Positions 28,188-58,808 of a DNA stretch of 64,000 bases are shown one piece after another. A program made the translations under genes and the position numbers. Source of the stretch: Bifidobacterium sp. ESL0704 (GTDB taxonomy: Bacteria; Actinomycetota; Actinomycetes; Actinomycetales; Bifidobacteriaceae); assembly GCF_029392075.1 (NCBI RefSeq), contig NZ_CP113929.1:1860001-1924000 (forward strand), read 5' to 3'. The notes below the pieces were generated by a model. That model saw only the letters and a program-made list of their open reading frames with translations. It did no database searches and had not been told where the DNA came from. Position 1 is the first letter of the stretch. Each line of letters starts with the position of its first letter.

Positions 28188-28286
28188 GGGTTTGTAGCCG
28201 GACCAAAAGCAAAAGCTACAAACCCATGTCTAACGGCCGCCTCATTGCGGGTTTGTAGCCAAATCGATCTTTTTGGCTACAAACCC
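28188..28286. repeat. Hairpin array A (2 units, 61-bp period)
   Basis: GGGTTTGTAGCC starts at 28188 and 28249. Each copy pairs with an inverse copy to form a 38-nt hairpin (28188-28225 with 11-bp arms; 28249-28286 with 12-bp arms). The linkers also share sequence after the right arm (ATGnnTAACG). It lies in the 411-bp gap between tRNA-Ser and serS. Nothing else is visible in that gap. Confidence 0.9.
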
Positions 28287-28453
28287 ATGAGTAACGTCCA
28301 TGAACCTGCCAGCAACGAGCACATCGAACACTGGCCACACCTTAGCGGCACGAAAGTGGAGGCGACATACGAAAAGCGCCATAGACAAGACACTGACTGT
28401 ACATTAGTGGCTTGTTTATGGCACTTCAGACGTTAACGAGCCAAGTCGCAAGC

Positions 28454-29740
28454 TCACGCCTCCCACTTGGTGGGCTCGATGACCTCGCGGCCGCCCATGT
28501 AGGGTCGCATGGCCTTCGGAATCTCGATGGATCCGTCCTTCTGCTGATGGTTCTCAAGGATGGCGACGAGCCAACGGGTGGTGGCCAGCGTGCCGTTGAG
28601 CGTGGCGACGGCGCGGGTGAAGCCGTCTTCGCAACGTTCGCGGATGTTCAGGCGACGGGCCTGATATTCGGTGCAGTTCGAGGTGGAGGTGAGCTCACGG
28701 TAACGGCCCTGGGTCGGCACCCAGGCCTCGTTGTCGAACTTGCGCGCGGCGGAGGAACCAAGATCGCCAGCGGCGGTATCGATGGTGCGATAGGGCACCT
28801 CGACCTTGGCCAACATCTGCTCTTCCATGCCGAGCAGCTGCTTGTGCATGGCGCGGGAGTCCTCCTGCTTGCAGTAGACGAACATCTCCACCTTGTCGAA
28901 CTGGTGGACGCGGATGATGCCGGAGGTATCCTTGCCCGCGGCCCCGGCCTCGCGGCGGTAGCAGCTCGACCAGCCGGTGTACTTCAACGGCCCGTCAGAC
29001 AAATCAAGGATCTCGTTTTCGTGCATGCCCGCGAGCGCCACTTCCGAGGTGCCCACCAGGTACTGGTCATCGGGTTCGCGCAGACGGTAGATCTCGTCTG
29101 CGTGCGAGTTCAGGAAGCCGGTTCCGGCCATGACCTCGGGACGCACCAGCGTCGGGGTGATGGCGAGCGTGAAGCCGTTCTCCTCAGCCTGGTCGACGGC
29201 CATGGTGAGCATCGCGATCTGCATACGGGCCACGGCGCCACGCAGGAAGTAGAAGCGCGATCCGGAGACCTTGACGCCACGACGCATATCGATGCCTGCC
29301 ACACCGACGCCGAGCGTCAGGTGGTCCTTGGGTTCGAAGCCCTCGGCCTTGAAGTCGCGCGGCGTGCCGACCTTCTTGACCACCACGTAATCATCCTCGC
29401 CGCCCTCGGGCGCTTCGGGCTCGACGATGTTGGAGAACTGCCACATGGCCTTGGTGTAGGCCGCGGAGGCATCATCCGACGTCTTCTTGTATTGCGCGAC
29501 CTTGCCCGCCAAATCCTTGGTCTGTGCAATGAGTGCGGCCTTTTCGTCGCCAGCGGCCGAAGCGACCTTCTTGCCCATGGCCTTCTGGCTGGCACGCGCC
29601 TCTTCGTACGATTTCAGTGCGGCGCGACGGATTTCGTCCTGCTTCAAAACCTCGTCGACGAGTTCGACGGATTCTCCGCGCTTGCGCTGGGAATCGCGCA
29701 CGACGTCGGGATGTTCACGAATAAATTGGATATCTAGCAT
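28454..29740 (-). CDS. serS: Seryl-tRNA synthetase
   Basis: A 428-residue class II synthetase that charges tRNA-Ser. The N-terminal coiled-coil arm (residues ~28-100: KRGESVELVDEVLKQDEIRR onwards) binds the long variable arm of tRNA-Ser. The catalytic core carries motif 2 (YTGWSSCYRREAGAAGKDTSGIIRVHQFDKVEMFVYC) and motif 3 (NGTLATTRWLVAILENHQ). The start at 29740 (MLDIQFIREHPDVV) matches the family; TAGGCT stands 7 nt upstream, so the transcript may be leaderless. It lies close to the tRNA-Ser gene. Confidence 0.96.
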   Translation of the reverse strand: MLDIQFIREHPDVVRDSQRKRGESVELVDEVLKQDEIRRAALKSYEEARASQKAMGKKVASAAGDEKAALIAQTKDLAGKVAQYKKTSDDASAAYTKAMWQFSNIVEPEAPEGGEDDYVVVKKVGTPRDFKAEGFEPKDHLTLGVGVAGIDMRRGVKVSGSRFYFLRGAVARMQIAMLTMAVDQAEENGFTLAITPTLVRPEVMAGTGFLNSHADEIYRLREPDDQYLVGTSEVALAGMHENEILDLSDGPLKYTGWSSCYRREAGAAGKDTSGIIRVHQFDKVEMFVYCKQEDSRAMHKQLLGMEEQMLAKVEVPYRTIDTAAGDLGSSAARKFDNEAWVPTQGRYRELTSTSNCTEYQARRLNIRERCEDGFTRAVATLNGTLATTRWLVAILENHQQKDGSIEIPKAMRPYMGGREVIEPTKWEA

Positions 29741-29913
29741 ATCCTCAAGCCTACTTCCGTAAAAGGACACCTACGGGCGGATCGCGGCCCGTCTATAAGC
29801 GCCGGTATTGATGTTTTTATTTATTGAAATTACCTCTATCGATTATCGCCCGATCACTGCCTTTGTTTTGGGATCAAAGTCGGAGCAAGACAAAGAACAA
29901 TCAGACAATCGAC

Positions 29914-31281
29914 TTATAGGAACAGCCCAACGATGTTGTAGAGAATCGCGCTGACCGCAATGACGCCGACGACCACGATGAACACGTTGCTGATCTTGCG
30001 GGAGTACTGCCTGAGCGCCGGCACCTTGTGTACGCCGTACATCGGCAGCAACAGAAGGATGAAGGCGATCAGCGGACCGGCCATGGTCTCGATCATACCG
30101 ATGGCCGAGGGGTTGGCCCAGGCCACGAACCAGCAGGCGAAGAACATCAAAACGCTGACGATGACGTTGAGCTTTTTGCGCTCGACCACCACACCTTTGG
30201 CGTGCGCGACCTTGCGGATGATGCCGCCAAGCCCTTCCTCAACGCCCAGATAATGGCCGAGGAACGCCTTGAAGATGCAGACGAACGCGGTAATCGAGGC
30301 AATCCACGAGATGGCCGGGGTGCCCAGCATATTGGCGAGATAGCTCAAAATGGAGACGTTCTGCGCCTTGGCCTGCGCCAAATCGCCGGGGGTGAGCGCC
30401 AGATCGCTGCTTAAGACGAAGAAGAGCACGACAGTGACCATCATGGGCTCCCCGACCTTCAAAATCCTGCCGATCTTGTCGTCGGAATATTTGCCGTACC
30501 GTCTGCGCACGTTGACGGAGAAGGACGAGACGATGGCGGAATGATCGAAGGTCAGCACGATAACGGGGACAAGCAGCCACAGATCAAGCAGAAGGGTGCC
30601 GAAATCAAAACTGCCGGCGGCGTTACGCGGGATACTGGTCAGCATGGAAGGGTTCCAGCGAGGGATGAGGTAGAGCGCGAAAATCACCAGCACGGCGATG
30701 ACCGGCCAGGTCAGCCAGCTCATCACACGGGTCACGGCGCGGGTGCCGCAGGCCACGATGAGAATCAAAACCGCGACGAGCACGAGGGAAAGCAGCCAGC
30801 GCGGCGGGGCGGGCACATGCAGCTGGTTGACGATGAAGCTTTCGGCCGTATTGGTGATGGAGACCGAATACATCAGCAGGATGACCAGCACCTCGACGAA
30901 GTAGATGACGGTGAAGACCATGCCGAAACCGAAGCCGAAATGCTGCTCGACCACGTCGGTGATGTCGTCATCGGGGTTACGGGCCGAAAGCACGAACCGG
31001 CACATCGCCCGGTGTGCGAAATAGGCCAGCGGATAGGCCATCAGCAGCATGAGCACGATGCCGACCACGCCCGCCCCACCGGCGTCGATCGGCAGAAACA
31101 GGACGCCGGCACCAATGGCGGTGCCGAAAAGACTCAGCATCCAACGCACGTCCTGGCCGTGCCATTTGAGTGCAGAGGCCCTGTCGGCCTTATCATCCTT
31201 GTTCGTTGTCCACTCTTTTCCGGCTGCATCGACTTGCGCGCTATCCGTCTGTTTTTGTGGTTGCCCTTCTTCACTCGTCAT
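29914..31281 (-). CDS. Serine/aromatic amino-acid permease (HAAAP family)
   Basis: A 455-residue transporter with a ~45-residue polar N-terminus and 11 membrane segments, beginning WMLSLFGTAIGAGVLFLPIDAGG, the hallmark first segment of the SdaC/TdcC group of proton or sodium symporters for serine, threonine or aromatic amino acids. Family position is clear, substrate is inferred (serine or threonine most likely given the SdaC-like IVNQLHVPAPPRWLLSL and YFVEVLVILLMYSVSITNT regions). GAGGGAAAG precedes the ATG at 31281. Confidence 0.85.
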   Translation of the reverse strand: MTSEEGQPQKQTDSAQVDAAGKEWTTNKDDKADRASALKWHGQDVRWMLSLFGTAIGAGVLFLPIDAGGAGVVGIVLMLLMAYPLAYFAHRAMCRFVLSARNPDDDITDVVEQHFGFGFGMVFTVIYFVEVLVILLMYSVSITNTAESFIVNQLHVPAPPRWLLSLVLVAVLILIVACGTRAVTRVMSWLTWPVIAVLVIFALYLIPRWNPSMLTSIPRNAAGSFDFGTLLLDLWLLVPVIVLTFDHSAIVSSFSVNVRRRYGKYSDDKIGRILKVGEPMMVTVVLFFVLSSDLALTPGDLAQAKAQNVSILSYLANMLGTPAISWIASITAFVCIFKAFLGHYLGVEEGLGGIIRKVAHAKGVVVERKKLNVIVSVLMFFACWFVAWANPSAIGMIETMAGPLIAFILLLLPMYGVHKVPALRQYSRKISNVFIVVVGVIAVSAILYNIVGLFL

Positions 31282-31832
31282 GAATCCACTTTCCCTCATG
31301 TTTTGTCGGAATTTTTAAAACCGCTTCGAATGGGTCACCGCCCTTTGCGAAGCAAAACACCACACGTTACGGGCAGATCATGCCGTTTCGATAATGCAAT
31401 ATTTGAATTTTGCGAAACCTGATAAATCAATCCGAAATATCGCTGCAAACGACGGTCGACGACGAATACGATCGACGAATCGAAGCGAGAATGCTGGTAT
31501 TCAGGGCAATCAAGGAGCGGCACACGGCATTGGCCATGACGCCTGTTTCCATTCCTTTATCCAGCATGTTTCCCAAGTATATTGAAGCCGGTCCGCGGCC
31601 GATCACCCGATGACAAATAATGAGACGGCATTGTTTCGTTTATGTTTCCTCGCGGCGCATCCGTTCTGCCGCCTCGGCGCCGGAATGCCGTCGTGTCTCC
31701 GTGCCGGCAGCCAACAACCAATCATCCCGATCGAACACCAACCGAAGCAAGCCACGACGGGCCAACGTGCAGGCTTCGTTCATCTTTTTCAACCGCAGGC
31801 GCAACGTCAATGTATTGCGACACAATAGGACC
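31282..31832. other. 551-bp divergent gap, nothing recognised
   Basis: The gap separates the permease (minus) from the lipid kinase (plus). Short open frames here show no ribosome-binding sites, no recognisable products and the base composition of non-coding DNA. CACAAT at 31821-31826, 6 nt before the lipid kinase ATG, is a likely -10 element for a leaderless transcript. Confidence 0.5.
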
Positions 31833-32936
31833 ATGTCTCGAACTGTGCTTTTCATCGTCATCGCCGTGGTTGCGGTATGCGTTCTCACCGTTGCCGCCGC
31901 GCTGGCATGGCGCTCCTGGTGGCGCTGGCGAAGGGTACAGAGATTCAATAAACGCGACGATGACCAGGTCCGTTACGCCTTCATCATCAATCCCTCGAAA
32001 CCCCAGGCCGCACGCTCACGCCTGCACATCGAGGAATTCTGCAAAGACCACAACATCACCGAGATCGAATTCATCGAAACGACGCTTCAACGCGACGGAC
32101 GAGTTTGCGCGTTGGAGGCGCTTGAACACGGCGCCGACGTCCTGGTGGCGGTGGGCGGCGACGGCACCGTGCGCACCGTCGCGAGCGCCATAAGCGGTAC
32201 GGGGCACACCTTGGGCATCATCCCCATCGGCACCGGCAACCTCTTCGCACGCAACATGGGCATCCCGGTCGACGACATCAACGCGGCCCTGGCCATCGCT
32301 ACTTCGCACGGCGAGCGGATGGTCGACATGGGACGTATGGCGCTGCTCGACAGGCCCGACGAGGACCACGCCCACGCATTCCTCATCATCGCGGGCATCG
32401 GTTTCGACGCCGATATGATCAGCGACACCGATCCGGAACTGAAGAAAAGCATCAGCTGGCTCGCCTATTTCTCCGGCGGCATGAAGCACCTGTTCGCTCC
32501 GAAATACCGCGGTGCCGTCGCCGTTACCAGCGCCGACGGCAGCTCACACACCATCGGCGAGTTGCATTTCCGCACGTTCATGGCCGGCAATTGCGGGCAG
32601 ATCCCTGTATTCTCGCTGATGCCGGACGCCTCGTTCGACGATGGCCTGCTCGATTTCGAAGTCATCGACACTTCAGGCGGTCTTCTCGGATGGATGAACC
32701 TCTTCGGCGACGTGATGCACCAGACCATCACCGGACGGGCACAGCAAAGCCCGCTTTCCACCAATTCGACCATGGAACAGATCCAAGGGGTCAAGGCAGA
32801 AATCAAGCTCGAAAAGCCCGCGCTGGCGCAAGTCGACGGCGATATGCTCGGTGCGACCAGCCATATCCGTTTCAGCGTTGAGCCCAAGTCGCTGCGCGTA
32901 CGCGTTCCGGCCAAGGCCGAGCTTGAGGAAATTTGA
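31833..32936 (+). CDS. Diacylglycerol/lipid kinase family protein
   Basis: A 367-residue protein. An N-terminal membrane anchor (residues 5-26) is followed by the DAGK catalytic domain: FIINPSKPQAARS, the nucleotide-binding GGDGTVRTVASAI, and IPIGTGNLFARNMGI. The second domain shows the YegS/DgkB fold signatures (IIAGIGFDADMI, SYFSGGMKHL-like region, DDGLLDFEVI, VDGDMLG). It phosphorylates a lipid at the membrane, probably diacylglycerol or a related glycolipid precursor. The start is supported by CACAAT 6 nt upstream and by the lack of any ribosome-binding site. Confidence 0.9.
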   Translation: MSRTVLFIVIAVVAVCVLTVAAALAWRSWWRWRRVQRFNKRDDDQVRYAFIINPSKPQAARSRLHIEEFCKDHNITEIEFIETTLQRDGRVCALEALEHGADVLVAVGGDGTVRTVASAISGTGHTLGIIPIGTGNLFARNMGIPVDDINAALAIATSHGERMVDMGRMALLDRPDEDHAHAFLIIAGIGFDADMISDTDPELKKSISWLAYFSGGMKHLFAPKYRGAVAVTSADGSSHTIGELHFRTFMAGNCGQIPVFSLMPDASFDDGLLDFEVIDTSGGLLGWMNLFGDVMHQTITGRAQQSPLSTNSTMEQIQGVKAEIKLEKPALAQVDGDMLGATSHIRFSVEPKSLRVRVPAKAELEEI

Positions 32937-33010
32937 CAGGTTGTTTCCGCACGGCAACCGATCTCGCCTTCTTTCAATCTCGACTAGACCGGCCGGCGCA
33001 CACTTGCATG

Positions 33011-33212
33011 TGCCAATTCCCACTCAATGGCCGCAAGATTTTGACAAGCAACAACACCAACTGTACTAACTGTCAATTTCCGAGCAATGTTCACCGGATG
33101 GTGACAGTTAGCGTTGCCTCCTGTCAAAATCTCAGCACTATTGCACGAATGCTTACGTGAAGCGTCCCTCAGTGTCAACATTTGTGCAATATTCTGCGAA
33201 TCGTGACAGTTA
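33011..33212. repeat. Hairpin array B (4 degenerate units)
   Basis: TGYCAA starts at 33011, 33071, 33122 and 33173 (60, 51, 51 bp apart), each followed ~30 nt later by TGACA-like sequence. The best hairpin is CTAACTGTCA (33066-33075) with its exact inverse (33102-33111). Units 3 and 4 share GCA-nTATTnnnCGAAT. It fills the gap between the convergent lipid kinase and DUF421 genes (32937-33281). Confidence 0.7.
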
Positions 33213-33281
33213 CACCGCCCTCGTCGCCCGATAACGTTGTATCCGTGCTATCGCCATACCAACGCAACGAACGGGAACCTA

Positions 33282-33917
33282 CTACTTCGCGTAACCGGTC
33301 AGTTCCAGCTTCCTGGAGACGTACTCGCCGATATACACGCCGTTGGTGCCGTCGTAGCCCTGCTTTTTGACCTCGTTTTCGAGCCAGTCCTTGTCGTGGC
33401 CGATGGCTTCCAGCACGTCCGTGTCGACCTGCCCGTCGACGATCAGCGGCAGTCGCAGCGTCTCGTCGCCATAGCAGATGACCGTCAGCTGGCCGTTCTG
33501 CTCGAAGTAGGCTTTCAGCACCTTGGAGATCTCGTAGACACCCTGCGCGCGCAGCTTGAGCATCAGGTCGCTGGCCGAAACGCCCTTGCGCATGCACGTG
33601 GCGACGTCGACCTTGCCGTGCGAGATGAGCATAACCGGGCTGCCGTCGATGAGCTTCTTGATCGGTCGGCTGTTCTCCTTGCCGAACTTGATGAGCATAC
33701 ACAGCAGCATCCACGTGATCAGCACGAAGACGAACTGAAGCACGGTGATCTGCTCGTTGTAGATCACGCCGCCGATGATGGCGCCGAGCACGTAGTTCTG
33801 GATCTGGTCCATGGCGCTGGTGGGTGCGAGGTTGGACTTGCCGAAAAGATTGATGTGGACGATCAGAAAGGCGATGCCCACGACGAGTTTGACGATGAGT
33901 GTGGTGCTAATGAGCAT
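33282..33917 (-). CDS. DUF421 (YetF-like) membrane protein
   Basis: A 211-residue protein: three membrane segments in residues 1-85 (LISTTLIVKLVVGIAFLIVHI; NYVLGAIIGGVIYN; FVFVLITWMLLCMLI) and a cytoplasmic DUF421 domain (RPIKKLIDGSPVMLISHGKV ... LMLKLRAQGVYEISKVLKAYFEQNGQLTV), as in Bacillus YetF. The upstream gene encodes a DUF3290 protein, the usual partner in Firmicutes and bifidobacteria. AGGAG stands 5 nt before the ATG. Role unknown; membrane-stress links have been proposed for YetF-type proteins. Confidence 0.88.
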   Translation of the reverse strand: MLISTTLIVKLVVGIAFLIVHINLFGKSNLAPTSAMDQIQNYVLGAIIGGVIYNEQITVLQFVFVLITWMLLCMLIKFGKENSRPIKKLIDGSPVMLISHGKVDVATCMRKGVSASDLMLKLRAQGVYEISKVLKAYFEQNGQLTVICYGDETLRLPLIVDGQVDTDVLEAIGHDKDWLENEVKKQGYDGTNGVYIGEYVSRKLELTGYAK

Positions 33918-34000
33918 GATGACTCCTTTTTCTGAAACAGACAATGAACGATAGGCTTGCCGTGCGCTAACGGCGCGATACTGCTGCTAAGTGGTCACAG

Positions 34001-34050
34001 CTGGTGCAAAGTGGTCATTTCACCCTCTCAAAATGACCACTTTGCACCAG
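34001..34050. repeat. Hairpin C: 20-bp perfect stem inside the DUF3290-DUF421 operon
   Basis: CTGGTGCAAAGTGGTCATTT (34001-34020) and its exact inverse (34031-34050) flank a 10-nt loop. Outer half copies AAGTGGTCA (33989-33997) and ACCACTTT (34056-34063) flank the stem in inverted orientation. It stands in the 171-bp gap between the two genes, so it should form in their shared mRNA. There is no U run. Confidence 0.95.
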
Positions 34051-34088
34051 TATCGACCACTTTGTGCCACAGCATGACGGATTTACGT

Positions 34089-34529
34089 TCACTTTTCTTC
34101 CTTGACGTCGGTGAGCATGTGGGTTTCGGTGAGTTTGTAAGCGGTATAGTCCGTGTTGAGGTTGACCGTATAGTACTTGTCGCCGATTTTGACGATGACG
34201 TCCTGGTTCAGGTATTTCGAATTGACCAGCACATCATCCTGCGAAACGTGCCGCTCCTTGGCGACGTGTGTCACAAAACTGACCATCTGCTCGCTTTTCG
34301 CGCTGGCCGTCTCGCTTTGCCGGAATTGCGTATAGCCGCTGCCGAGCACCAGCACCACCAGCAGCAACGCGATGATGCCCAAGTCGCGGTATTTCGTTTT
34401 GAGCCGGTGCCGCAGATACAACACGAAGAACGCGACCAGCGCCACGCACAACGCGATGATGACGACGAATCGGATGACCTGATTGATGCCGTGCTGGTTC
34501 TGCAGGTAATTGATACCGTAAAATGTCAT
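34089..34529 (-). CDS. DUF3290 family membrane protein
   Basis: A 146-residue protein with the DUF3290 layout: short N-terminus (MTFYGINYLQNQHGINQ), two membrane segments (VIRFVVIIALCVALVAFFVLYL; LGIIALLLVVLVLGSGYTQ), and an extracytoplasmic domain with VLVNSKYLNQDVIVKIGDKYYTVNLN. GAGGCG is 5 nt upstream of the ATG. It is the first gene of the DUF3290-DUF421 pair. Confidence 0.88.
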   Translation of the reverse strand: MTFYGINYLQNQHGINQVIRFVVIIALCVALVAFFVLYLRHRLKTKYRDLGIIALLLVVLVLGSGYTQFRQSETASAKSEQMVSFVTHVAKERHVSQDDVLVNSKYLNQDVIVKIGDKYYTVNLNTDYTAYKLTETHMLTDVKEEK

Positions 34530-34780
34530 GGAAACGCCTCAAACATAGGTTGATAGGTTATTTCTCCCGCTTCATCGTAGTGCGTCGCAATACGTAACGT
34601 CCCTTTTGGTGCTTACAGAAGAATTTATATGACATTTTCCAGCACGCTGACCGCTATAGGCACCAAATCGCCTAGCAATGACCCGCTCGTTTCGCTTCGC
34701 ATTTCCAATGGCACTTACTGCCAACCAATGCCCAAATGGCTACGCTATATGCCAATCCAAAGCGTCAATCCACAAATTGG

Positions 34781-35007
34781 TGCCGGAAAACCGCACGTCA
34801 CCAACCACCAAAGTCCGTTCACCAGCACCACCACACATCAATGCTGGAAAACAGCACCAAACCAGCAGCCAAAGTCCGTTTACCAGCACCACACAATAAT
34901 GCCGGGAAACGGCATCTCAGCAACCACCAAAGTCCGTTCACCAGCACTCCCACACATCAATGCTGGAAAACCGCACGTTACCAGCAGCCAAAGTCCGTTC
35001 ACCAGCA
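34781..35007. repeat. Hairpin array D (4 units of 47 nt)
   Basis: Units at 34781-34827, 34842-34888, 34900-34946 and 34961-35007. Each starts TGCYGGRAAAC and ends GTCCGTTYACCAGCA, so each forms a hairpin, and all are exactly 47 nt. Start-to-start spacing is 61, 58 and 61. The stem sequence is the same family as array E at 51.3 kb. It occupies the 575-bp divergent gap upstream of pgm; nothing else is seen at 34530-34780. Confidence 0.95.
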
Positions 35008-35104
35008 ACAATAGGGCATAGAACCTCACAATCCACCTGTGTGATTGATTGTGACAGCGCACAAAATCCACGCTTTCGCCGCATGACTGTGGCACAATGG
35101 AGGC

Positions 35105-36781: not shown

Positions 36782-36908
36782 CAAGCGGCACGAAGGCCGG
36801 CCGATAGTGCAGCAGGAACGTCAGCGGTTCCGCAATTGTCGAAAGCACTTTCGACCGGTCTTTGCATCATCCGCCCCGATTTCGCCGCCGCAACGTAATC
36901 TTAGAGAT

Positions 36909-38501: not shown

Positions 38502-38609
38502 CAGAAACAAACAAAACATGAACAAGAGCAAAAGTATCGGAACACCGATACTATGGAAAGTGACGCTCGTCACTACATGACGAAGCCAGACCTGTTAAAA
38601 GGAGTATCA

Positions 38610-39308: not shown

Positions 39309-39343
39309 GTTCGCGACTCGGCCATGAACCGGCTTCAGCCGGA

Positions 39344-39580
39344 TATGCTGATGGGGGATTTGCGACATCATCTCTTTGAGGTGCGTCGCAAATCCCCCAT
39401 CAGCATAAGTAAGCGGAGGAAACACGACGCTCACGGCTCAGCTTGTGTCGCAAATCCTCCACTTGCATACGATAATGGAGGGAATGCGACGCCTATCAAC
39501 CTATTTGCGTCGCATTCCCTCCACCAAACATATAAAGCAGCGATTTTGCGACGCTATCCTGCCATTCAGCGTCGCAAATC
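39344..39580. repeat. Hairpin array F (4 units, 62-bp period)
   Basis: The GAC of the shared stem motif occurs at 39364, 39426, 39488 and 39550, exactly 62 bp apart each time. Hairpins: 39344-39407 (23-bp perfect arms, 18-nt loop), 39415-39460 (imperfect), 39477-39522 (16-bp perfect arms), 39541-39580 (one bulge). The core is (G)GATTTGCGACG, shared with array G at 47.7 kb. It fills the gap between convergent rpiA and tpx; the 23-bp hairpin may also end the rpiA transcript. Confidence 0.95.
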
Positions 39581-39619
39581 CTCCAGCTCAAGTATCAGCT
39601 CAGCTAACGAGCCAGTCGT

Positions 39620-40605: not shown

Positions 40606-40623
40606 GCACGAAAAGCTTTACTA

Positions 40624-41618: not shown

Positions 41619-41757
41619 CTTGGTGGCACCAAGAGGGGCAAAAATCAAAGAATTGATATGAATTCTGTAATTTTTGGGGTACTTGGTGCACCAAGAGGGG
41701 CAAAAAATGAAGAATCGGCACTCAATTGCCTCGATTCCGCGGACTTGGTGCACCAAG
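41619..41757. repeat. Hairpin array I (3 units, 62-63 bp period)
   Basis: CTTGGTGGCACCAAG (41619-41633) and two copies of the perfect palindrome CTTGGTGCACCAAG (41682-41695, 41744-41757). Between them GGGGCAAAAA and ATTTTTGG pair in inverted orientation, so each unit can form a long hairpin. It lies in the 414-bp divergent gap upstream of radA. Confidence 0.92.
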
Positions 41758-41907: not shown

Positions 41908-41914
41908 CGGCATC

Positions 41915-47617: not shown

Positions 47618-47690
47618 GAAAGCTCCAGCGTCTCCCTCCCCTGCAAACCGGCCGCAGGGGCTCACTGAACCTCCCGATTACGCCGCTACT

Positions 47691-47804
47691 GGGGGATTTG
47701 TGACGCTAATTGACCTTTTTGCGTCACGAATGTGCCATTAAACATCAATAGCCGGAGCTTTTGCGACGCTTTATCAGCATTTTACGTCACAAAAGCTCCG
47801 GCTA
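47691..47804. repeat. Hairpin array G (2 units, 63 bp apart)
   Basis: The shared GACG of the stem motif is at 47702 and 47765. Hairpins: 47691-47736 (GTGACGC/GCGTCAC core, imperfect outside) and 47749-47804 (TAGCCGGAGCTTTTG and its exact inverse, 15-bp stem continued as GACG/CGTC after one mismatch). The core TTTG(C/T)GACGC is the same as in array F. It lies between the convergent DUF985 gene and ribF. Confidence 0.93.
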
Positions 47805-47874
47805 CTCTCGCAGACACCCTTGCTTGTGGTGATTGTCGAGGCACTTATTGCCTCGTCATTCGGCTATTGCTTCC

Positions 47875-49149: not shown

Positions 49150-49227
49150 CAAAATCCTTTGTCTTGTCTGCCGCAAGCCATCTTATCAGCCAAGCCACCC
49201 GCGCGAAAGCCCCTTTTCTTTCAGCCT

Positions 49228-50718: not shown

Positions 50719-51181
50719 CATCCTCAAAATCGGCGGCGGTCTTCTTCTTGCGCGGCTCGACGTACGGATTCGCCTCGCCGGCGTACTGCGCGGTCTCGCG
50801 GGCCTTGTCGAGCTCTTCGTCGCGCCTGTGGGCGGTGACCAGAATGTCTTCGATCTCGTGTGCCTCGCTCGGCACTTCGTCATAGATGAACTGCAGCTGC
50901 GGGGTCAGGCGCAGCCCAGCCTTGGCACCCACCAGCGAACGGAGCCTGCCGGTGGCCTGCTTCAGCGCCTGCTCGGCACGCTTGCGCTCACCCTGCGCCT
51001 TACCCTCCTGGCCAAGCTGGGTCCAGTAGACGCGTGCGATCTGAAGGTCGCCGGTGACGCGCACATCAGTGATGGTGACGCCGTTGAGGCGCTTGTCGTG
51101 CAATGTGCGTTCCATCGACGAGGCGATGACACGCTGAATCAACGCCGCGATACGCGCGGCCCGTGGATTGGTTCCTGCCAT
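50699..51181 (-). CDS. rbfA: Ribosome-binding factor A
   Basis: A 160-residue factor for 30S subunit maturation. KH-like core with RIAALIQRVIASSMERTLHDKRLNGVTITDVRVTGDLQIARVYW and LRLTPQLQFIYDEV, followed by an acidic C-terminal tail (AADFEDDGVEEE). It sits between infB and truB in the usual order and overlaps truB by ~20 bp. Confidence 0.96.
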   Translation of the reverse strand: MAGTNPRAARIAALIQRVIASSMERTLHDKRLNGVTITDVRVTGDLQIARVYWTQLGQEGKAQGERKRAEQALKQATGRLRSLVGAKAGLRLTPQLQFIYDEVPSEAHEIEDILVTAHRRDEELDKARETAQYAGEANPYVEPRKKKTAADFEDDGVEEE

Positions 51182-51271
51182 AACGTTTCCTTTTATTACT
51201 TACTCTAACTGTTACGTTTCATGATACAGACTGACGAGAATACGTGTTCTCCTACTGAATTATCACTGTGC

Positions 51272-51503
51272 TGCTGGTAAACGGACTCCAGACTCATATT
51301 ATGAGCCGTTTTCCAGCATAACCACACTTTCCTGCTGGAAAACGGATTCTAAACTCTTACGAGAGTCCGTTTTCCAGCACCTCCATTGACTTGATGCTGG
51401 TAAACGGACTCTAGCCGCTTGCTATATGCCGTTTACCAGCACAACACTTGTTCTGATGCTGGTAAACGGACTTTTAGTTCACGTCACAGTCCGTTTACCA
51501 GCA
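51272..51503. repeat. Hairpin array E (4 units of 47 nt) inside the infB-rbfA gap
   Basis: Units at 51272-51318, 51333-51379, 51395-51441 and 51457-51503, each exactly 47 nt, starting TGCTGG(T/A)AAACGGA and ending CCGTTT(A/T)CCAGCA. Start-to-start spacing is 61, 62 and 62. The loops are all different. The stem family is the same as array D at 34.8 kb. It lies in the 448-bp gap between infB and rbfA on the minus strand, so it would be transcribed if the cluster is one operon. Confidence 0.96.
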
Positions 51504-51629
51504 CTAAACGTTTTCGTACTAACTCAATCAGACACAACAGAAAATGCGTAGACACTCCAACGGCAAAAATGACAATTGCCACCCGCTGCGCTTTGACGCT
51601 GCAGATGGCAATCCATCAATACCGATTAA

Positions 51630-54560
51630 TCACTTCTTCTTGGAATCAGTTTTCGGTTCGGGTGCCTTGAGGTCGCCTTCGGACTTCCCGGAGCCCTTGT
51701 CATCCTTCTTTGAAGGCTGACCGTCCTTGCGCTCGATCTCCTTCATCTCGAAGGTCTCGATAATGTCGCCTTCCTGGATGTCGTTGAAGGAACCAAGGTT
51801 GATGCCAGCCTCGTAGCCTTCCTTGACGGACTGCACGTCGTCCTTGAAACGACGCAGCGAGGAGATCTCCAGGTCGTTGACCGTGGCCACGCCATTGCGC
51901 AGAATACGCGCCTTGGTGCCACGCTTGACCTCGCCGTCCTGGACCATGACGCCGGCGATGTTGCCGAACTTGGAGGAACGGAAGATCTGGCGAATCTCGG
52001 AATGGGAGGTGGTGACCTCTTCGTACTCCGGCTTGAGCATGCCCTTCAAGGCGGCTTCGATATCTTCAATCGCCTTGTAGATGACGGAGTAGTACTTGAT
52101 CTCCACGCCCTCGCGGTCGGCAAGATCGGCGACCTGACGGTTCGGACGGACGTTGAAGCCGATGATGACGGCCTTGTCGACCGTGGCCAGATTGACATCG
52201 TTCTGGGTGATCGCGCCGACACCGCGGTGGATGACCTGGATGCCGACCTCGTCGGACACCTCGATCTTCATCAGGGAATCTTCCAACGCCTCGACGGAAC
52301 CGGAGGAATCGCCCTTGATGACGATGTTGAGCATGTCGACCTCGGACTTGGCGAACTGCTCCTTCAGGCTCTCGAGCGAAACGACCTTGCGACGCTTGGC
52401 CAGCTGGGCCGCGCGTTCGGAGGCCTGACGCTTTTCGGCGATCTGACGGGCGGTGCGGTCGTCGGGTGCGACCAGGAAGAGGTCGCCGGCGCTCGGCACG
52501 CTGGTCAGGCCCAGCACCTGGACAGGCGTGGAAGGCGCTGCGGCCTTCATGGTCTTGCCGTCCTCGTTGAGCATGGCACGCACGCGGCCGTATGAAGTGC
52601 CGGCCACGATGGCGTCGCCCACATGGAGCGTACCCTGCTGCACCAGCACGGTTGCCACGGCGCCGCGTCCCTTGTCGAGCCTTGCCTCGACGGTCGCTCC
52701 ACGAGCGTCCATATCGGGGTTGGCCTTGAGGTCGAGTTCCGCATCGGCGGTCAGGAGAATCGCTTCAAGCAGCTTGTCGACGTTGGTGCCCAGTTTCGCG
52801 GAGATGTCGACGAACATGGTGTCGCCGCCGTATTCCTCGGGGACCAGGCCGAACTCAGTGAGCTGTCCGCGTACCTTTTCAGGATTCGCGCCTTCGACAT
52901 CGATCTTGTTGACCGCGACCACGATCGGCACCTTGGCCGCCTGCGCGTGGTTGATGGCCTCAACCGTCTGCGGCATCACGCCGTCATCGGCCGCGACGAC
53001 GAGCACCGCGATATCGGTCAGTTCGGCACCACGGGCACGCATGGCGGTGAACGCCTCGTGGCCAGGGGTATCGAGGAAGGTGATCTTGCGCGGTTTGTCT
53101 TCCAAGTTGACAGTGACCTGATAGGCACCGATACGCTGGGTGATGCCACCGGCCTCTCGCGCGGACACATTGGTCTTGCGGATGGTGTCGAGCAGGCGGG
53201 TCTTGCCGTGGTCGACGTGGCCCATGACAGTGACCACCGGCGGACGCGGCTTCAGATCCTCGTCGTCCTGCAGTTCTTCCTCATCAAGATTGATGTCGAA
53301 CTGCTGCAGGATCTCCTTGTCTTCCTCTTCGGCGGAAACGATCTTGACGTTCCAGCCGATTTCCTCGCCCAGAATCTGGAACGTGGCTTCATCGAGGGAC
53401 TGGGTGGCCGTGGCCATCTCGCCCAAGTGGAACATGACCGTCACCAAAGCGGCGGGATTGACATTGATCTTTTCGGCGAGGTCGGCGAGCGTGGCTCCCT
53501 GACGAAGCTTTACGGTCTGGCCATTACCGGCGGGAATGCGAACACCGCCGATGGTAGGAGCTTTGATCTCCTCGTAATCACGACGTTTCGCAAGCCTGTT
53601 CTTGCGGGCCCTCGAAGATTTGCCGCCCTGACGGCCGAAAGCACCTGCGGCACCGCCACGACCGCGACCGCCGCCACGCGACGGGCCGCCGCCCTGATAG
53701 CCGCCGGATCCGCCACCGAAGCGATTGCCGCCACGGCCTTGGGATTCGCCTTGGGCCTGCCCGGGGCGATTGTGCCCCCACTGCCCAGGACGTGCGCCCT
53801 GGTTCTGCCCGGGACGTCCGTTGCGGAATCCACCACGGCCACCACGGCCTCCATTGCGGCCGCCACGGCTGTTGTTGACCGTGGGACGGGCCATCGGATG
53901 CGGGCGCGGGATGCCGCTGGGCATCGGTACATGCATGCCCTGCTTGCGGCTGAATGGATTGTTACCCGGACGAGGCCCGGAACCTGTGTGCTGAGCGTGC
54001 GGCGCGGGCTGCGCACCACCATTGCCGGGACGAGGGGCACCACCGTTACGCGAACTGTTCGCGCCTGGCTTCACGCCACCGTTGTTGCCATTGAAATGCT
54101 GGTTGTTGCGCGGCCCGGGCATGCCACCCTGACGGCGTCCATGATCGCGACCACCGTGTTCGTTATGGCCACGATTGCCTTCATACTCGCGGTTTCCGCC
54201 CTCATGACGAGAACCGTGAGACTGGCCATTACGCGAAGACTCGTGATGGGGACCGGCACCAGGCTTGGCCGGGAAATGCGAATGAGCCTGTTCTCCCGGC
54301 TTCGCGCCGGTAGCGTTCTGACGCTGATGGCCGCTGCCCGGCTTGGCTCCGTGGGCGGAAGGTTTGGATTTTGGTGAAGCACCATCGGCCCCGGAATTAT
54401 CGTTCTGCGGGAACGCGGCCCGCAACTTGCGGACAACCGGCGCCTCCACTGTCGAGGATGCGGATTTGACGAACTCCCCCATGTCCTTCAGCTTCCGAAG
54501 GACGGCTTTACTGTCTACGCCAAACTCTTTAGCGAGTTCATATACGCGCTGTTTTGCCAC
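51630..54560 (-). CDS. infB: Translation initiation factor IF-2
   Basis: A 976-residue GTPase that places initiator tRNA on the ribosome. N-terminal IF2_N motif ([27 protein letters not shown]), then ~280 residues of Gly/Asn/His/Arg/Pro-rich low-complexity sequence, a second IF2_N-like region near 355-430, the G domain with [16 protein letters not shown] and NKID, and domains II-IV ([43 protein letters not shown]). A short Lys/Ser/Asp-rich tail follows. Family typical for actinobacteria except for the very long Gly/Asn/His linker. Confidence 0.97.
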
Positions 54561-54708
54561 TCAGTTTTCTCCTACTATTGTGACCGCGCGTACATGCACG
54601 GTCAATGTATTGTTACGGCGAGCTTACCCAGACTCATCGTGCGACCATGATTGTGTTACCTCGTCTCCGACCGGTGTGCAGACGCACTTCGCGCCGGTAA
54701 CCGGATTA

Positions 54709-54743
54709 CTGCAATCCAGCATACTCGTGATGCTGGATTGCAG
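54709..54743. repeat. 14-bp stem hairpin directly after nusA
   Basis: CTGCAATCCAGCAT (54709-54722) and its exact inverse (54730-54743), 7-nt loop, starting 1 bp after the nusA stop. No U run. The apical CCAGCA/TGCTGG matches the outer stem of arrays D and E, so it may be a single relative of them or an RNA-processing site in the operon. Confidence 0.85.
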
Positions 54744-54744
54744 A

Positions 54745-55812
54745 CTATTGTTCGTTTTCTACTGTTTTGCCCTCTTCGGCGGCTTTTGCGGCAGCCTGTG
54801 CCTGGGCGGCGGCATGGGCTTCGCTGGACTCGATGCCGATCTTCCAACCGGTGAGTTTGGCGGCGAGCCGGGCGTTCTGCCCCTCTTTGCCGATAGCGAG
54901 CGAAAGCTGGTCATCGTGAATGTAGGCGATGGCCGTCTTGTTCTTCTCGCTGACGATATCGACACCGGTTGCGACCGCCGGCGAAAGCGCGGAGCCGACG
55001 AACTTTGCGGGGTCCTTCGACCAATCAACGATGTCGATCTTCTCCGGTCCGAGATTCTCCATCACCGCACGCACGCGAGCGCCGCCAGGACCGATCAAGG
55101 CGCCCTTCGGATTGACGCCTTCGGTGTTGGCACGAACCGCGATCTTGGTGCGGGCGCCGGCCTCACGGGCGATGGCCATGATCGAGACGGCACCGCTCAC
55201 CAGCTCCGGAACCTCACGCTCGAAAAGCTTGCGCACCAGCTCAGGGTGCGAACGCGACACGACGATTTCAGGGCCCTTCAGCCCACGACCGACGGTGACG
55301 ACATAGACGCGCAGGCGGTCACCGTGACGATAATGCTCGCCGGGCACCTGTTCGCGTTTGGGCAGAATCGCCTCGACGTCGCCAACCGCGACATGCACAT
55401 TGGCCGGGTCCTTCGTATCCTGCTGGATGACGCCGGTGATGAGCTTGCCTTTCTGCCCGGCAAAGGCGCCGAGCACTCGTTCGTCCTCCGCATCGCGGAA
55501 AAGCTGACGAATCACCTGACGGGCGGTCGAAGCCGCCAAACGTCCGAAATCATGCGGGGTGTCATCGTATTCTTCGCCGAGTTCCGGACGCGGGTGCGGG
55601 TCCTCCTCGGTGGGCTCCACCGGCTTTTCGTCCCTCGCCCAGACGGTGAAGGTGCCTGCACGATCGTCGAGTGCGACGCGGGCGTGCTTCGCCGCATGTG
55701 GTGTTTTGCCATACGCCAATAGCAATGCTTCGGAAAGTGCGTTGTCAAGTGTTTCAGAATCGATTCCCTGCCCTGCCGCGAGCTGATGAATACCTGTCAG
55801 GTCCAGTTCCAT
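54745..55812 (-). CDS. nusA: Transcription termination/antitermination factor NusA
   Basis: A 355-residue factor that binds RNA polymerase and nascent RNA. N-terminal domain residues ~1-130, S1 domain (LITGVIQQDTKDPANVHVAVGDVEAILPKREQVPGEHY), KH1 and KH2 (ALIGPGGARVRAVMENLGPEKIDIVDW; DDQLSLAIGKEGQNARLAAKLTGWKIGIES). The short Ala/Gln-rich tail is typical of actinobacteria, which lack the C-terminal acidic repeats. It heads the infB cluster and is divergent from a lipoprotein gene. Confidence 0.96.
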   Translation of the reverse strand: MELDLTGIHQLAAGQGIDSETLDNALSEALLLAYGKTPHAAKHARVALDDRAGTFTVWARDEKPVEPTEEDPHPRPELGEEYDDTPHDFGRLAASTARQVIRQLFRDAEDERVLGAFAGQKGKLITGVIQQDTKDPANVHVAVGDVEAILPKREQVPGEHYRHGDRLRVYVVTVGRGLKGPEIVVSRSHPELVRKLFEREVPELVSGAVSIMAIAREAGARTKIAVRANTEGVNPKGALIGPGGARVRAVMENLGPEKIDIVDWSKDPAKFVGSALSPAVATGVDIVSEKNKTAIAYIHDDQLSLAIGKEGQNARLAAKLTGWKIGIESSEAHAAAQAQAAAKAAEEGKTVENEQ

Positions 55813-55896
55813 GGTCGCAAGACCTCCTATATGAAATTATCTGCCGAGCTTTTCAAAGCCCCATTAAGTCATAATCATTCGGTATTCTAGTAGTTT

Positions 55897-56805
55897 ATGC
55901 AGACACGTCGTATTTTTTCCTCTTTGCGCAATTTCCTGAGACGACGTGTCGTTCCAGCGCTTGCCGTGGCCGCTCTTGTCGTTCCTTTGGCGGCCTGCAA
56001 CGCCCCGCGAATCGAATCTCCTGTGGAATCGGCAGGGCCCTGCAGAACCGCCTATGACAATGCCGTCTCCGACAGTTCACAGTCAGACGCAGGCCATCCG
56101 TTCATCGACCGTTACCTATCCGCCGGAAACGCAGCGCAATCCTGGCGTGAGGCCGCTATTCTCTGCCCGTCGCAATTCAGCATATATACCATAAAAAGCG
56201 CGCAGATGCAATGGCTTCAGCGCAGTCTTTCTGTACAGGTCGGTGTTACACCCACACGACCCAACGCGGCACTGGCCAATCTCGACAACGTCTTCGCCTT
56301 GCATGTCAGCCGCGACACCCTCGCTTCCATGGCTTTGGCGGAGGACCGTGCCGGTTTTGAAATCGCGGTCCTTGCGGCAAAAGGCGTCGGCAATGCCACT
56401 CTGCGTCTAAGCGATGGCCACAAAGCCGTCGCCTCGCGCCTTATCTCTTTGGAGACCAAGAACGCAAGTGCCACCGCCTCCAACGACCCGCGCAAGAAGG
56501 TCTACGACGTGACCGATCTCCTCGCCCACCCCGAGACCATTACCGATCCGAGCACCGGATTGCAGACTTCCACCATCGGCGTCGTGGAGATGGATTGCGC
56601 CCGCGAATCGCTTACCGCCCTTTCACAGACATTGCCGGTATCGAACACCGACGATTCGTCTGCTGCCAACGGTGCTGCATCGGGAAACCAAAGAAACGAA
56701 AGCAGCAGCAAATCGCTGGCCGTGCTCGCCGATCTCATCTCCTCGCGTATCTACCTGGCGTTATCGCTGGGCTATCCGTCTTTCGACAGCGCTTTGTATC
56801 GGTAA
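55897..56805 (+). CDS. Lipoprotein of unknown function
   Basis: A 302-residue protein. The basic N-terminus (TRRIFSSLRNFLRRR), hydrophobic stretch and lipobox LAAC (Cys34) define a lipoprotein. The mature part contains three more cysteines (ESAGPC, AILCPS, MDCARES) that may form disulfides, and a Ser/Asn/Ala-rich linker near 250. The cell-surface domain is unrecognised. Position next to nusA is common to bifidobacteria in my recollection. TATTCT is 8 nt before the ATG, with no ribosome-binding site, so the message may be leaderless. Confidence 0.8.
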   Translation: MQTRRIFSSLRNFLRRRVVPALAVAALVVPLAACNAPRIESPVESAGPCRTAYDNAVSDSSQSDAGHPFIDRYLSAGNAAQSWREAAILCPSQFSIYTIKSAQMQWLQRSLSVQVGVTPTRPNAALANLDNVFALHVSRDTLASMALAEDRAGFEIAVLAAKGVGNATLRLSDGHKAVASRLISLETKNASATASNDPRKKVYDVTDLLAHPETITDPSTGLQTSTIGVVEMDCARESLTALSQTLPVSNTDDSSAANGAASGNQRNESSSKSLAVLADLISSRIYLALSLGYPSFDSALYR

Positions 56806-57206
56806 TCGTTGTATATCCATTTCCCCGATTGACGTCGCAGCCAAGCACAGCTCAGGTGAAATCTCACGGACCGTCAAGCCCTTCCCGTCATCCCTGGTTG
56901 GATCACACCCCAAGATCGCACCCCGACATGTTGATGACGCTTCGGGATTGTCTCTCTGCCTAATGCGGCGGTCGCCGATTTTGCCTTGAAGATATCTCAC
57001 ACCTGTATGCATGTCTCATTCAGTACGGCGCCATTGCCGATACCCCCGAATCGGGGTTAATGGCCAGAAAACGTGTCCGTTTTAGGATGTGAGCGGTTGT
57101 CCCGTCTGGTCTGTCGGGCGTTCGAGTTGGGCAGCGGCAAACTCGGAGACCAGAGACACTGCAGATACGAAAACGCCTCCGAAACCGAAGTTCCAGAGGC
57201 TTAACG
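56806..57206. other. 401-bp gap with one palindrome and a tRNA terminator
   Basis: GCCATT-N8-CCCCGA/TCGGGG-N2-AATGGC (57030-57064) forms a two-step hairpin without a U run. The tRNA-Ser terminator lies at 57169-57203. No gene is seen. Confidence 0.5.
57169..57203 (-). terminator. Terminator of tRNA-Ser(CGA)
   Basis: On the minus strand GCCTCTGGAAC-TTCG-GTTTCGGAGGC forms an 11-bp stem with one mismatch and a TTCG tetraloop, followed by GTTTTCG. Confidence 0.85.
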
Positions 57207-57291
57207 CGGATAAGGCGAGATTCGAACTCGCGGAGGATTTCTCCTCACACGCTTTCGAGGCGTGCTCCTTAGACCGCTCGGACACTTATCC
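57207..57291 (-). tRNA. tRNA-Ser(CGA)
   Basis: Acceptor stem GGATAAG/CTTATCC, discriminator G, long variable arm (GAGGAGaaaTCCTCC region), T arm identical to that of the tRNA-Ser(UGA) in this window, anticodon stem CACGC/GCGTG with loop CTCGAAA, anticodon CGA. CCA is not encoded. Confidence 0.95.
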
Positions 57292-57529
57292 ATTTGTTAC
57301 GAAAACGCAACTTTTCTAGTATAAGGCAACGTGCCAACCATCGCAACCGGGCGTGGCGCATTCCACACAATCCTCCAGATCGCACCATAAATAGGCCGCT
57401 ACCGTACAATCAGCGGCCAAAATGGCGGAACAGAACAATTCTGCCATATTCGGTCCGCTTTCCCGAGGCCAGTGACTTATTTATGGAGCAACTGAATTTC
57501 GTAGGCCTCTTCAGGGCGATTCTGCACAA

Positions 57530-58561
57530 TCAATCGAGAGTGCGGCGAGCGCGGATCGCCACGGCGCGCTTCGCCAGCTCGGTGTCCGGCGGATAAGCGA
57601 CATGCTCCAGTGTTAGACCGCAGGCGGCGATGGGCCCGGTCGAGCCTTCACGCACGGGTTCGGCCATCTTGCGCGCGAACCAATCCAAAGACTTGCGATG
57701 CCGACCGACCTGTACGCACGCGTTGACCAGCGAACGCACCATGTTGTGCGCGAAAGCATCGGCCACTATGGTGAAACAGACCAGACCGGACTCGAGGGAC
57801 GGCACGGCGTAGGCCTGATCTGTACTCGAACGACCCGTTGTGAATCCGGACCCGCATGCCGCCACGGATGGCGTCTCAGAGGTTCCGACGATTGCCGGCT
57901 TATCATTCCCGCCGGGCGCAGTGGATGGTTGAGCATCCACGAAACCAACGGCGTCACCGTACAATCCCGTTGCAGGCACACGCTTCCACACCGCCTTCTT
58001 GACCTCACGAATGGTGGTACCGCCCGGATTGGGAGTAGCGAAGGAGCCGAAATCGTGCAGACCGATGGTCATGGCAGCGGCCTGGTTCATCGCGGGGATA
58101 TCAAGCGTGTCTTCGAGGTTCCACACAAAGCCGCGCAACCGTGGATCAGCGGGTCTGGCCCCGTCCGCAATCCGATACACATATGTGCGTTCCAATGCCG
58201 AGAAACGGGCGTCGAAACCGTCCGGCGCCACTTGCACGCCGTGCAGTGCGATATCATCGGGCAAATCGTGGCTCAGACGACGACGCAAAGCCTCGACGGC
58301 GGGCACTTGCATGTGTCCCACGCAACGATCGAGCGTCGCCTCCCCCACGTCCAGATGGCAGACCTGATGGGCGGCATGCACACCAGTATCGGTGCGTCCG
58401 GCTACCACCAGCCGCAAGGGCTCATCGGCATCGTCAACCGGCACGCGCATGACAGTATGCAACGCGGTCTCAACGACCCCTTGCACGGTACGCAGGCCGG
58501 GCTGCTTCGCCCAACCATGGAAACCGCCGCCGTCGTATGCCAGATCAATTCGTAATCTCAT
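57530..58561 (-). CDS. truA: tRNA pseudouridine synthase A with insert
   Basis: A 343-residue enzyme that makes pseudouridine 38-40 in tRNA anticodon arms. Catalytic Asp in LVVAGRTDTGVHAAHQV; start MRLRIDLAYDGGGFHGWAKQ fits the family; NMVRSLVNACVQVGRHR and APACGLTLEHV-like end. A ~60-residue Gly/Ser/Thr-rich insert (about 220-275) is absent from most TruA. TATACT is 7 nt before the ATG at 58561, so it may have its own leaderless promoter; the frame is open to 58624. It follows rplQ after hairpin array H. Confidence 0.95.
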   Translation of the reverse strand: MRLRIDLAYDGGGFHGWAKQPGLRTVQGVVETALHTVMRVPVDDADEPLRLVVAGRTDTGVHAAHQVCHLDVGEATLDRCVGHMQVPAVEALRRRLSHDLPDDIALHGVQVAPDGFDARFSALERTYVYRIADGARPADPRLRGFVWNLEDTLDIPAMNQAAAMTIGLHDFGSFATPNPGGTTIREVKKAVWKRVPATGLYGDAVGFVDAQPSTAPGGNDKPAIVGTSETPSVAACGSGFTTGRSSTDQAYAVPSLESGLVCFTIVADAFAHNMVRSLVNACVQVGRHRKSLDWFARKMAEPVREGSTGPIAACGLTLEHVAYPPDTELAKRAVAIRARRTLD

Positions 58562-58644
58562 CGTTGCCAGTATACGTGCTGCACCGGCTTGCAAACTCAG
58601 TACATCGCGTACAGCAGCAAACATGCTCTGAATAAGAGAAAATT

Positions 58645-58808
58645 GTGATTAACTCTGCACGATGCTCGAATATACAGAATTAATCACGAAAAGACTATCG
58701 AAAACGTGATTAGCTCTGCATCGCATCTGAGCATGCAGAATAAATCACAAAAAGACCAGCAAAAACGTGATTAGCTCTGCAAGTTCATGAATATGCAGAA
58801 TAAATCAC
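58645..58808. repeat. Hairpin array H (3 units, 61-bp period)
   Basis: Units at 58645-58687, 58706-58748 and 58767-58808, start-to-start spacing 61 and 61. Each begins GTGATTA(A/G)CTCTGCA and ends TGCAGAAT(T/A)AATCAC or close variants. Loops and linkers differ, the linkers sharing only A-rich sequence. It lies between rplQ and truA, after the rplQ terminator. Confidence 0.96.

Follow-up and report, generated by a model that had tools for sequence, protein, structure and literature searches.

Nine intergenic gaps in a 64,000-bp stretch of the Bifidobacterium sp. ESL0704 chromosome (positions 1,860,001 to 1,924,000 of contig NZ_CP113929.1; hereafter the window) hold short inverted repeats, arranged in tandem at eight of them. 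At all but the 33.0-kb locus, these repeats belong to families dispersed between genes; they are spaced by whole turns of the DNA helix, and many arrays recur at orthologous positions in related species; in the family termed F1, unit length is constant, and the two arms of a unit vary independently and change more slowly than the DNA around them. The reading favored here, at a probability of roughly 0.6, is that they are dispersed, tandemly duplicating arrays of predicted protein-binding half-sites in phase on a single face of the helix, and not hairpins maintained by selection. A preceding sequence-only reading had reported tandem hairpins in eight gaps and a single one at 34.0 kb, and all nine coordinates were reproduced together with the spacings. 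The loci are listed below; G000 denotes the genome that holds the window, other G numbers related genomes, and L numbers sampled stretches or loci.

28188..28286, unstranded: Array A, family F7 (TCATGGGTTTGTAGC type), two units (28188 and 28249) with a period of 61, in the serS/tRNA-Ser gap; F7 has three more clusters in the G000 sample.
33036..33212, unstranded: Array B, a 102-bp direct repeat (2 x 51) at 33.0 kb that carries inverted arms; irregular, the least regular of the nine, and matched to none of the ten families.
33976..34070, unstranded: Element C, family F10 (TGGTACAAAGTGGTCA type), a single nested inverted repeat in the gap between yetF and a DUF3290 gene.
34781..35007, unstranded: Array D, family F1 (TGCTGGNAAACNG), four units of 47 bp upstream of pgm, at 34781, 34842, 34900 and 34961 (spacing 61/58/61).
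39344..39588, unstranded: Array F, family F4 (GCGTCGCAAA), four units with a period of 62 (right arms 62/62/62 apart) between rpiA and an AhpC-like gene; the stem of unit 1 is a perfect 23 bp (39344-39407).
41619..41757, unstranded: Array I, family F2 (palindromic 14-bp core CTTGGTGCACCAAG), three copies upstream of a RadA-like gene, at 41619, 41682 and 41744 (63/62), the first with one inserted base.
47697..47804, unstranded: Array G, family F4, two units with a spacing of 63, in the cupin/ribF gap.
51272..51503, unstranded: Array E, family F1, four units of 47 bp in the infB/rbfA gap, at 51272, 51333, 51395 and 51457 (spacing 61/62/62).
58645..58808, unstranded: Array H, family F9 (CAGAGATAATCAC), three units with a period of 61 (spacing 61/61, right arms 61/60) in the rplQ/truA gap.

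The same half-sites recur well beyond the window. The G000 sample comprises 864 kb (the window plus forty 20-kb stretches, 36% of the 2,415,815-base chromosome), divided by gene calling into 167 kb of intergenic DNA in 460 gaps and 696 kb of coding DNA. A search of this sample with ten half-site patterns gave ten families, nearly all with a usual period of their own:

F1 (TGCTGGNAAACNG): periods 61/62, 71-73, 81/82 and 93.
F2 (CTTGGTGCACC): periods 61-63.
F3, F4, F5 and F6: period mostly 62.
F7: period 61.
F8: period mostly 51.
F9: period 61.
F10: period 20.

Eight of the nine window loci fall in families with at least three clusters elsewhere in this sample, so that the stems, earlier described as private to each locus apart from two shared pairs, are private only inside the window. 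F3 and F5 are probably one family with two subtypes, because only two positions differ between them and they share gaps. With stems counted at a score of at least 10 against a dinucleotide shuffle, the intergenic 167 kb contains 229, compared with 6 in one shuffle and 47 in the coding DNA, which makes inverted repeats about 38 times commoner in sampled intergenic DNA than in the shuffle. In a smaller sample (the window and 20 stretches), the 97 kb called intergenic gave 127 stems and the dinucleotide shuffles 4.0 each, compared with 22 across 366 kb of called coding DNA. Under stricter patterns, the density of F1 in G000 is 4.93 per 10 kb between genes and 0.32 within them (15x), and the intergenic density of the other families is at least 24 times the genic one. 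Genes were called with a purpose-built hexamer caller trained on G000; since it misses atypical genes, the intergenic set includes some coding DNA and the signal is therefore diluted. Within the window, 21606-28453 is one such uncalled gap of atypical composition, with no gene called despite open reading frames of 815 and 372 aa, and is probably acquired DNA.

Some repeats elsewhere in the sample are conspicuous in their own right. A long F8 array (L024:426-1071) has 25 half-site matches of alternating orientation spaced by exactly 51 bp, or five turns, and further 51-bp arrays resembling it lie at L026:9354-9910 and L138:5551-5972. A large minisatellite with a unit of about 10 bp (CATATCCCGC / CGCATCCAGC type) fills some 500 bp of a single gap at L028:7834-8999.

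The families are also restricted in their distribution. The closest named SerS records are those of Bifidobacterium sp. ESL0784, ESL0763 and ESL0682, B. commune, and B. bohemicum, which are bee and bumblebee species. G000 and G087 carry F4 at high density; it was unseen between genes in the samples of G084, G086 and G090, and F5, F6, F7 and F10 were unseen between genes in the samples, several of them small, of ten other genomes of the bee clade. DNA matches to F1 were obtained in at least 9 of 112 Bifidobacterium genomes, G000 included, these counts being lower bounds from at most six scored candidates per genome.

The spacing of the repeats follows the helix. Exact 9-base direct repeats in the 460 gaps of G000, each gap counted once per lag, cluster at lags of 20-21, 51, 61-63, 72, 102 and 123-124 bp, with few between: 34 gaps have such a repeat at 62, 19 at 61, 15 at 51, 12 at 72 and 12 at 102, against about 2 of 460 at most other lags. 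Lags near 5 to 10 turns account for 82 of the 460 gaps, and the 23 lags between them for 25. Thus, of the single spacing of about 61-62 bp put forward by the sequence-only reading, it stands that 61-62 is commonest; it is, however, one member of a set of periods that lie one helical turn apart (51, 61-63, 72, 102, 123-124). Periods do vary genome-wide, as they would if scattered, yet they do so in whole turns and not randomly. The best period in G000 is 10.35-10.4 bp, and the phase statistic R at 10.3 bp is 0.397, compared with a maximum of 0.191 over 500 gap-phase randomizations; it is still 0.321 without the 6- and 12-turn lags, and coding DNA gives 0.058. Gaps with short-unit satellites were retained in the stem and 9-base lag counts, and were excluded by rule from the R test (unit 5-16) and from a further estimate of the best period (unit 5-24).

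This regularity holds regardless of family and extends to other species. Among 64 loci from elsewhere in the Bifidobacteriaceae (almost exclusively Bifidobacterium, plus single loci from Scardovia, Pseudoscardovia, and a further genus), R is 0.222 against a null maximum of 0.145, with nearly all of the G000 families missing and other motifs in their stead. G087 gives 0.390 against 0.242, and G084 gives 0.421 against 0.408. Read directly, arrays of other species show similar layouts built on other half-sites, with periods of 51-53, 62, 73 and 83 bp. The control from E. coli (250 kb; R 0.087 against a null maximum of 0.375, with 38 lags only) is weak, because small sets give a high R even when shuffled (0.506 for 16 lags, 0.362 for 14).

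The F1 unit is also nearly constant in length. It consists of two inverted half-sites of about 20 bp around a loop that is to a large extent free, and it is 47 bp long in 54 of 55 cases in G000, in agreement with the earlier claim that all units of Arrays D and E are 47 nt, and in 53 of 57 cases in relatives. Linkers between units are mostly 14/15, 24/25, 34/35 or 45/46 bp, with exceptions of 11, 17, 18, 26, 36, 47 and some above 60. Thirty-one arrays yield 67 distances from unit to unit; by a hand count from the list, 60 of these deviate by no more than 1.5 bp from a multiple of 10.27. With distances below 51 or above 200 bp excluded from the F1 test, one distance taken per array, and the 60-63 class left out, 22 arrays give an R of 0.712 that none of 2000 uniform draws matched; for the 13 arrays of G000 alone, the fraction of draws reaching R is 0.013.

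If the arrays were kept as hairpins, changes in one arm should be matched in the other. Over 20 positions in 107 F1 units, 1492 of 2140 cells pair, compared with 1553.6 expected (sd 11.8), a deficit of z -5.2. Position by position, 38 units pair at 7/41 (36.3 expected), 43 at 12/36 (52.7), and 34 at 14/34 (48.2). The deficit arises because F1 half-sites come in two subtypes, told apart by the dinucleotide at positions 14-15 (CA or AC): of the 107 units, 52 combine one of each, 27 have both alike, and 28 are others. Some arrays run in a single direction, among them the 34.8-kb array (four units, all CA|AC), L028 (four), L198 (four) and L201 (five), and the others are mixed, as at 51.3 kb. For F4, F5, F7, F8 and F9 (7-28 units each), pairing z-scores lie between -1.5 and +1. 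Selection for hairpins was accordingly rejected for F1, whose arms show no compensatory changes in the covariation test, and with it the earlier view of the hairpins as a maintained feature; F3 is not covered by this rejection.

These results bear directly on whether the repeats act as RNA, either as clustered terminators or as RNA-processing stems. The strong intergenic enrichment of inverted repeats would suit such a role, as would the excess of pairing in F3, and in the portion of PMC8355165 drawn on here, clusters of hairpins, likewise runs of intergenic stem-loops, are proposed as terminators in a set of genomes that includes one Bifidobacterium. Against it stand the F1 pairing below the shuffle and the near-zero values of the five other families, a spacing that follows B-DNA, and the position of the arrays: they occupy convergent, divergent (34.8 and 41.6 kb), and co-directional gaps, including sites upstream of divergent genes and others inside gene rows (such as infB-rbfA and rimM-trmD), as well as the gap between rplQ and truA. 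Moreover, a scan of the window and L028 with Rfam returned a single family at gathering score, a tRNA. An RNA function for the arrays is thus considered quite unlikely. Separately, ARAGORN calls a tRNA-Ser (cga) at 57206-57291 that Rfam at its gathering threshold does not list.

Comparison of orthologous gaps shows that arrays are both inherited and turned over. In the DUF3290-pgm gap, F1 units were recognized in 5 of 11 genomes, and the end of the last unit is 97, 97, 97 and 96 bp upstream of pgm in G000, G083, G084 and G089, and 214 bp in G092. In the infB-rbfA gap there are four F1 units in G000 and two in G091, which begin 90 and 89 bases past rbfA; of the other genomes, three show one or two weak units there and six have none. 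For nine more F1 arrays, the genes on both sides are the same as those around an F1 array in another species. Elsewhere, arrays are gained or lost: in 7 of 11 genomes, yetF and the DUF3290 gene share an 18-bp overlap at the place that Element C occupies in G000, and the rpiA-ahpC gap of G000, F4 array included, measures 311 bp, compared with 95 bp in G086, where RpiA is 99% identical. Thus, some orthologous gaps lack arrays (yetF-DUF3290, rpiA-ahpC, and part of the pgm and infB gaps) and others have them, and the proposal that the arrays arise by an active process rather than by inheritance is partly borne out: local tandem duplication is visible in the 34.8-kb array, in which a 119-bp dimer is present twice with 88% matches, whereas arrays in orthologous gaps (pgm and the nine further F1 arrays) point to inherited copies. 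By eye, G086 (L121) and G090 (L123) carry a TGCACTTTT-type repeat in the DUF3290-pgm gap in place of their relatives' F1 units. Upstream of the RadA-like gene, where G000, G086, G090 and G092 have F2 arrays, G083 (L118) and G087 (L125) have another long inverted repeat around CCATGGTTACCAAAAGATAC.

Where arrays are shared, the sites are conserved more than their spacers, as seen in a small sample of two F1 loci and one F2 gap. For two F1 arrays compared between G000 and G086 (two of three array pairs set up were aligned), identity is 205/215 in arms, 58/66 in loops, 57/63 in linkers, and 327/382 in flanks, with a single gap column within the arrays compared with 67 outside them. In the gap that precedes the RadA-like gene, the F2 core of G000 is identical to that of G086 at 45/45 positions and to that of G090 at 43/44, compared with 261/281 and 215/264 in the rest of the gap; for G092 the values are 34/45 and 142/275. 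Six loci of G000 together have 16 F2 cores at regular spacing, all of the same sequence; a loose F2 pattern adds ten matches in five pairs, which look like chance. In G092 (L127:17058-17258, fetched orientation), the F2 core is mostly CTTGGCGCGCCAAG instead of CTTGGTGCACCAAG, exactly so in four of seven copies, at two loci. Such a change in step would fit a shift in the specificity of a binder, on the showing of two loci only.

Conceivably, the periods could instead be set by a duplication process that favors whole turns, for example recombination in bound or supercoiled DNA, with no need for the arms to be bound at present. The local duplications seen in the 34.8-kb dimer and in the unit pairs repeated in L198 and L201 agree with this, as do whole-turn periods for unrelated motifs and in other species. 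It would not explain why the arms of F1 and F2 lag behind loops, linkers, and flanks in their rate of change. Because arms change slowest, and because F1 unit length is fixed despite a free loop, selection on arms and spacing is indicated, and a purely mechanical origin of the periods is judged unlikely.

The favored reading, that of phased protein-binding arrays, can be set out as a mechanism. We infer that the half-sites bind protein, with a different protein or specificity for each family, and that bound neighbors make contact. A dimer, or two related subunits, would occupy two inverted half-sites about three turns apart, as in the 47-bp F1 unit. With units placed head to tail and same-orientation sites 5, 6, 7, 8 or 9 turns apart, bound protein would come to lie on one face of the DNA, and adjacent dimers could touch across linkers able to take extra whole turns. 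Insertions and deletions that break the phase would be removed by selection, and duplication of one or two units would add copies that are already in phase. Arrays would then be inherited and decay, and families would be gained or lost between species. As for purpose, the arrays could serve the host, for instance in chromosome folding or insulation, or they could be selfish repeats that spread with the help of their binder. It is tentatively suggested, at somewhat less than even odds, that they form a previously undescribed class of element, with many families per genome, arrays of paired and in part directional half-sites locked to whole turns, a predicted binder for each family, the assembly of ordered nucleoprotein blocks in gaps between housekeeping genes, and a turnover between species like that of selfish site-and-binder pairs.

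Several observations weigh against this picture. No binder was found, and no regulator-like gene recurs beside the arrays among 60 proteins from the window and array flanks compared with Pfam or NCBIfam, which represent part of the flanks. In F3, arm pairing is in excess (z +3.1; 12 units, a loose set that includes F5-like units), and some stems are longer and more perfect than a pair of half-sites calls for, with 23 bp at 39344-39407 and 32 bp at L013:9283-9383. Seven of the 67 F1 distances are off phase (58, 64, 65, 94, 118, 157 and 170), orthologous arrays enter the distance test as separate counts, the one-per-array test is not significant in relatives alone (9 arrays, 0.126), and the best F1 period differs between G000 (10.68) and relatives (10.25), with 10.49 for both. 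The phase test fails when the small samples of G086, G090 and G092 are pooled (0.387 against a null maximum of 0.404) and in ten Gardnerella-type loci (0.130 against 0.218). Two alignments are also to be read with caution. For F1 units of the pgm gap (arms 379/448, loops 54/121, linkers 28/42), arm identity is inflated because the units were located by their arm motif, and the alignment of the infB gap between G000 and G091 (arms 60/72, loops 11/22, linkers 9/14, flanks 154/206) is rich in gap columns, since the array of G091 is shorter by two units. Gardnerella-type loci L048, L049 and L050, which do not pass the phase test, contain short hairpins about 52-54 bp apart.

The genes around the arrays offer no common theme: the same 60 proteins are mostly unrelated housekeeping, transport, and repair proteins, with no evident regulon. 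The largest cluster of F1 neighbors comprises seven flanks that represent three orthologous loci, and the two of the seven that were checked are ABC-transporter ATPases. An ATPase of this kind as a cognate partner of F1 was set aside, the family being very common and the loci only three. Along the chromosome, the density of phased gaps, counted independently of family, falls from 7.7 to 2.9 per 10 kb from origin to terminus (p=0.023), and family-based counts of arrays drop steeply towards the terminus; because some of the choice of families came from the window itself and the family-independent count is milder, this is claimed as a weak trend only.

Among the systems compared, so far as the sources consulted in part describe them, the layout is closest to that of REPINs and BIMEs. 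In the portion of PMC3116915 used here, REPINs are two conserved sequences of about 16 nucleotides inverted around a spacer and found partly in tandem clusters, and PMC3733652, likewise in part, gives REP itself as a short hairpin with a GTAG or CGTC tag. Like these dispersed extragenic inverted pairs, some in ordered tandem clusters (for BIMEs, by description only), the G000 arrays are dispersed, intergenic, lineage-restricted, and gained or lost at orthologous gaps, which would be in keeping with selfish repeats moved or copied as an inverted pair by an enzyme that acts on single-stranded DNA and recognizes the hairpin, as proposed for RAYTs. They differ in having ten families in one genome sample, F1 arms that are independent and of two subtypes, and whole-turn periods, which would be unexpected for single-stranded hairpins; REPIN/BIME phasing was compared on the 250 kb of E. 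coli, whose 38 lags are too few. No Y1_Tnp (RAYT, PF01797) was found in G000, the control being positive in 5 of 14 genomes. Because this defining enzyme was looked for and not found, the arrays are not filed as REPINs, although they may behave alike, and mobilization of this type is regarded as unlikely, if a shade less so than the duplication process considered above.

Remnants of insertion sequences (IS), whether terminal inverted repeats or tiny miniature inverted-repeat transposable elements bound by a transposase, are very unlikely. Some IS ends begin with TG and end with CA, and many units likewise start TG and end CA; F10-type elements are, in addition, long near-perfect inverted repeats. 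However, neither rve nor Transposase_mut was detected in G000 (controls positive in 6 of 14 genomes each; other transposase families were not searched), which suggests few insertion sequences of those kinds. Still more remote, to the point of being barely credible, are arrays of guide RNAs akin to CRISPR or to TIGR stem-loops, in which the variable loops would serve as spacers. TIGR arrays, as presented in the part of PMC12045711 consulted, are tandem stem-loops with variable palindromic stems, variable loops, and two short spacers per unit, and the loops and short linkers of F1 are indeed variable and about 15 nt long. G000 differs in that no Nop-domain (Tas) protein (PF01798) was found, with the control positive in 4 of 14 genomes, that the families are scattered over many gaps with mostly few units in each, and that two half-site subtypes are conserved across loci. 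On the same partial sources, TIGR arrays and clusters of terminator hairpins fit less well than REPINs and BIMEs.

A further resemblance is to the phased operator arrays of DNA-binding regulators, which share inverted half-sites, whole-turn spacing, and conserved sites with free spacers; the G000 arrays differ from them in the lack of an evident regulon among the neighbors examined and in the many families per genome. A search of open-access titles and abstracts, a scope outside which most subscription papers fall, gave no account of such arrays in Bifidobacterium or of whole-turn spacing of interspersed repeats, and within that scope the sequence-only reading, which knew of no described element of this type, is supported.

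Interspersed palindromic repeats are usually interpreted as hairpins mobilized by RAYT-type enzymes. Here, a spacing that follows the helix and independent F1 arms, with no RAYT found, point instead to double-stranded DNA and a bound protein. The whole-turn test can be applied to any genome with REP-like repeats. If a binder were found, the arrays would represent either a new layer of chromosome organization or a selfish repeat of a new type, and this in bacteria that matter to both bees and people.

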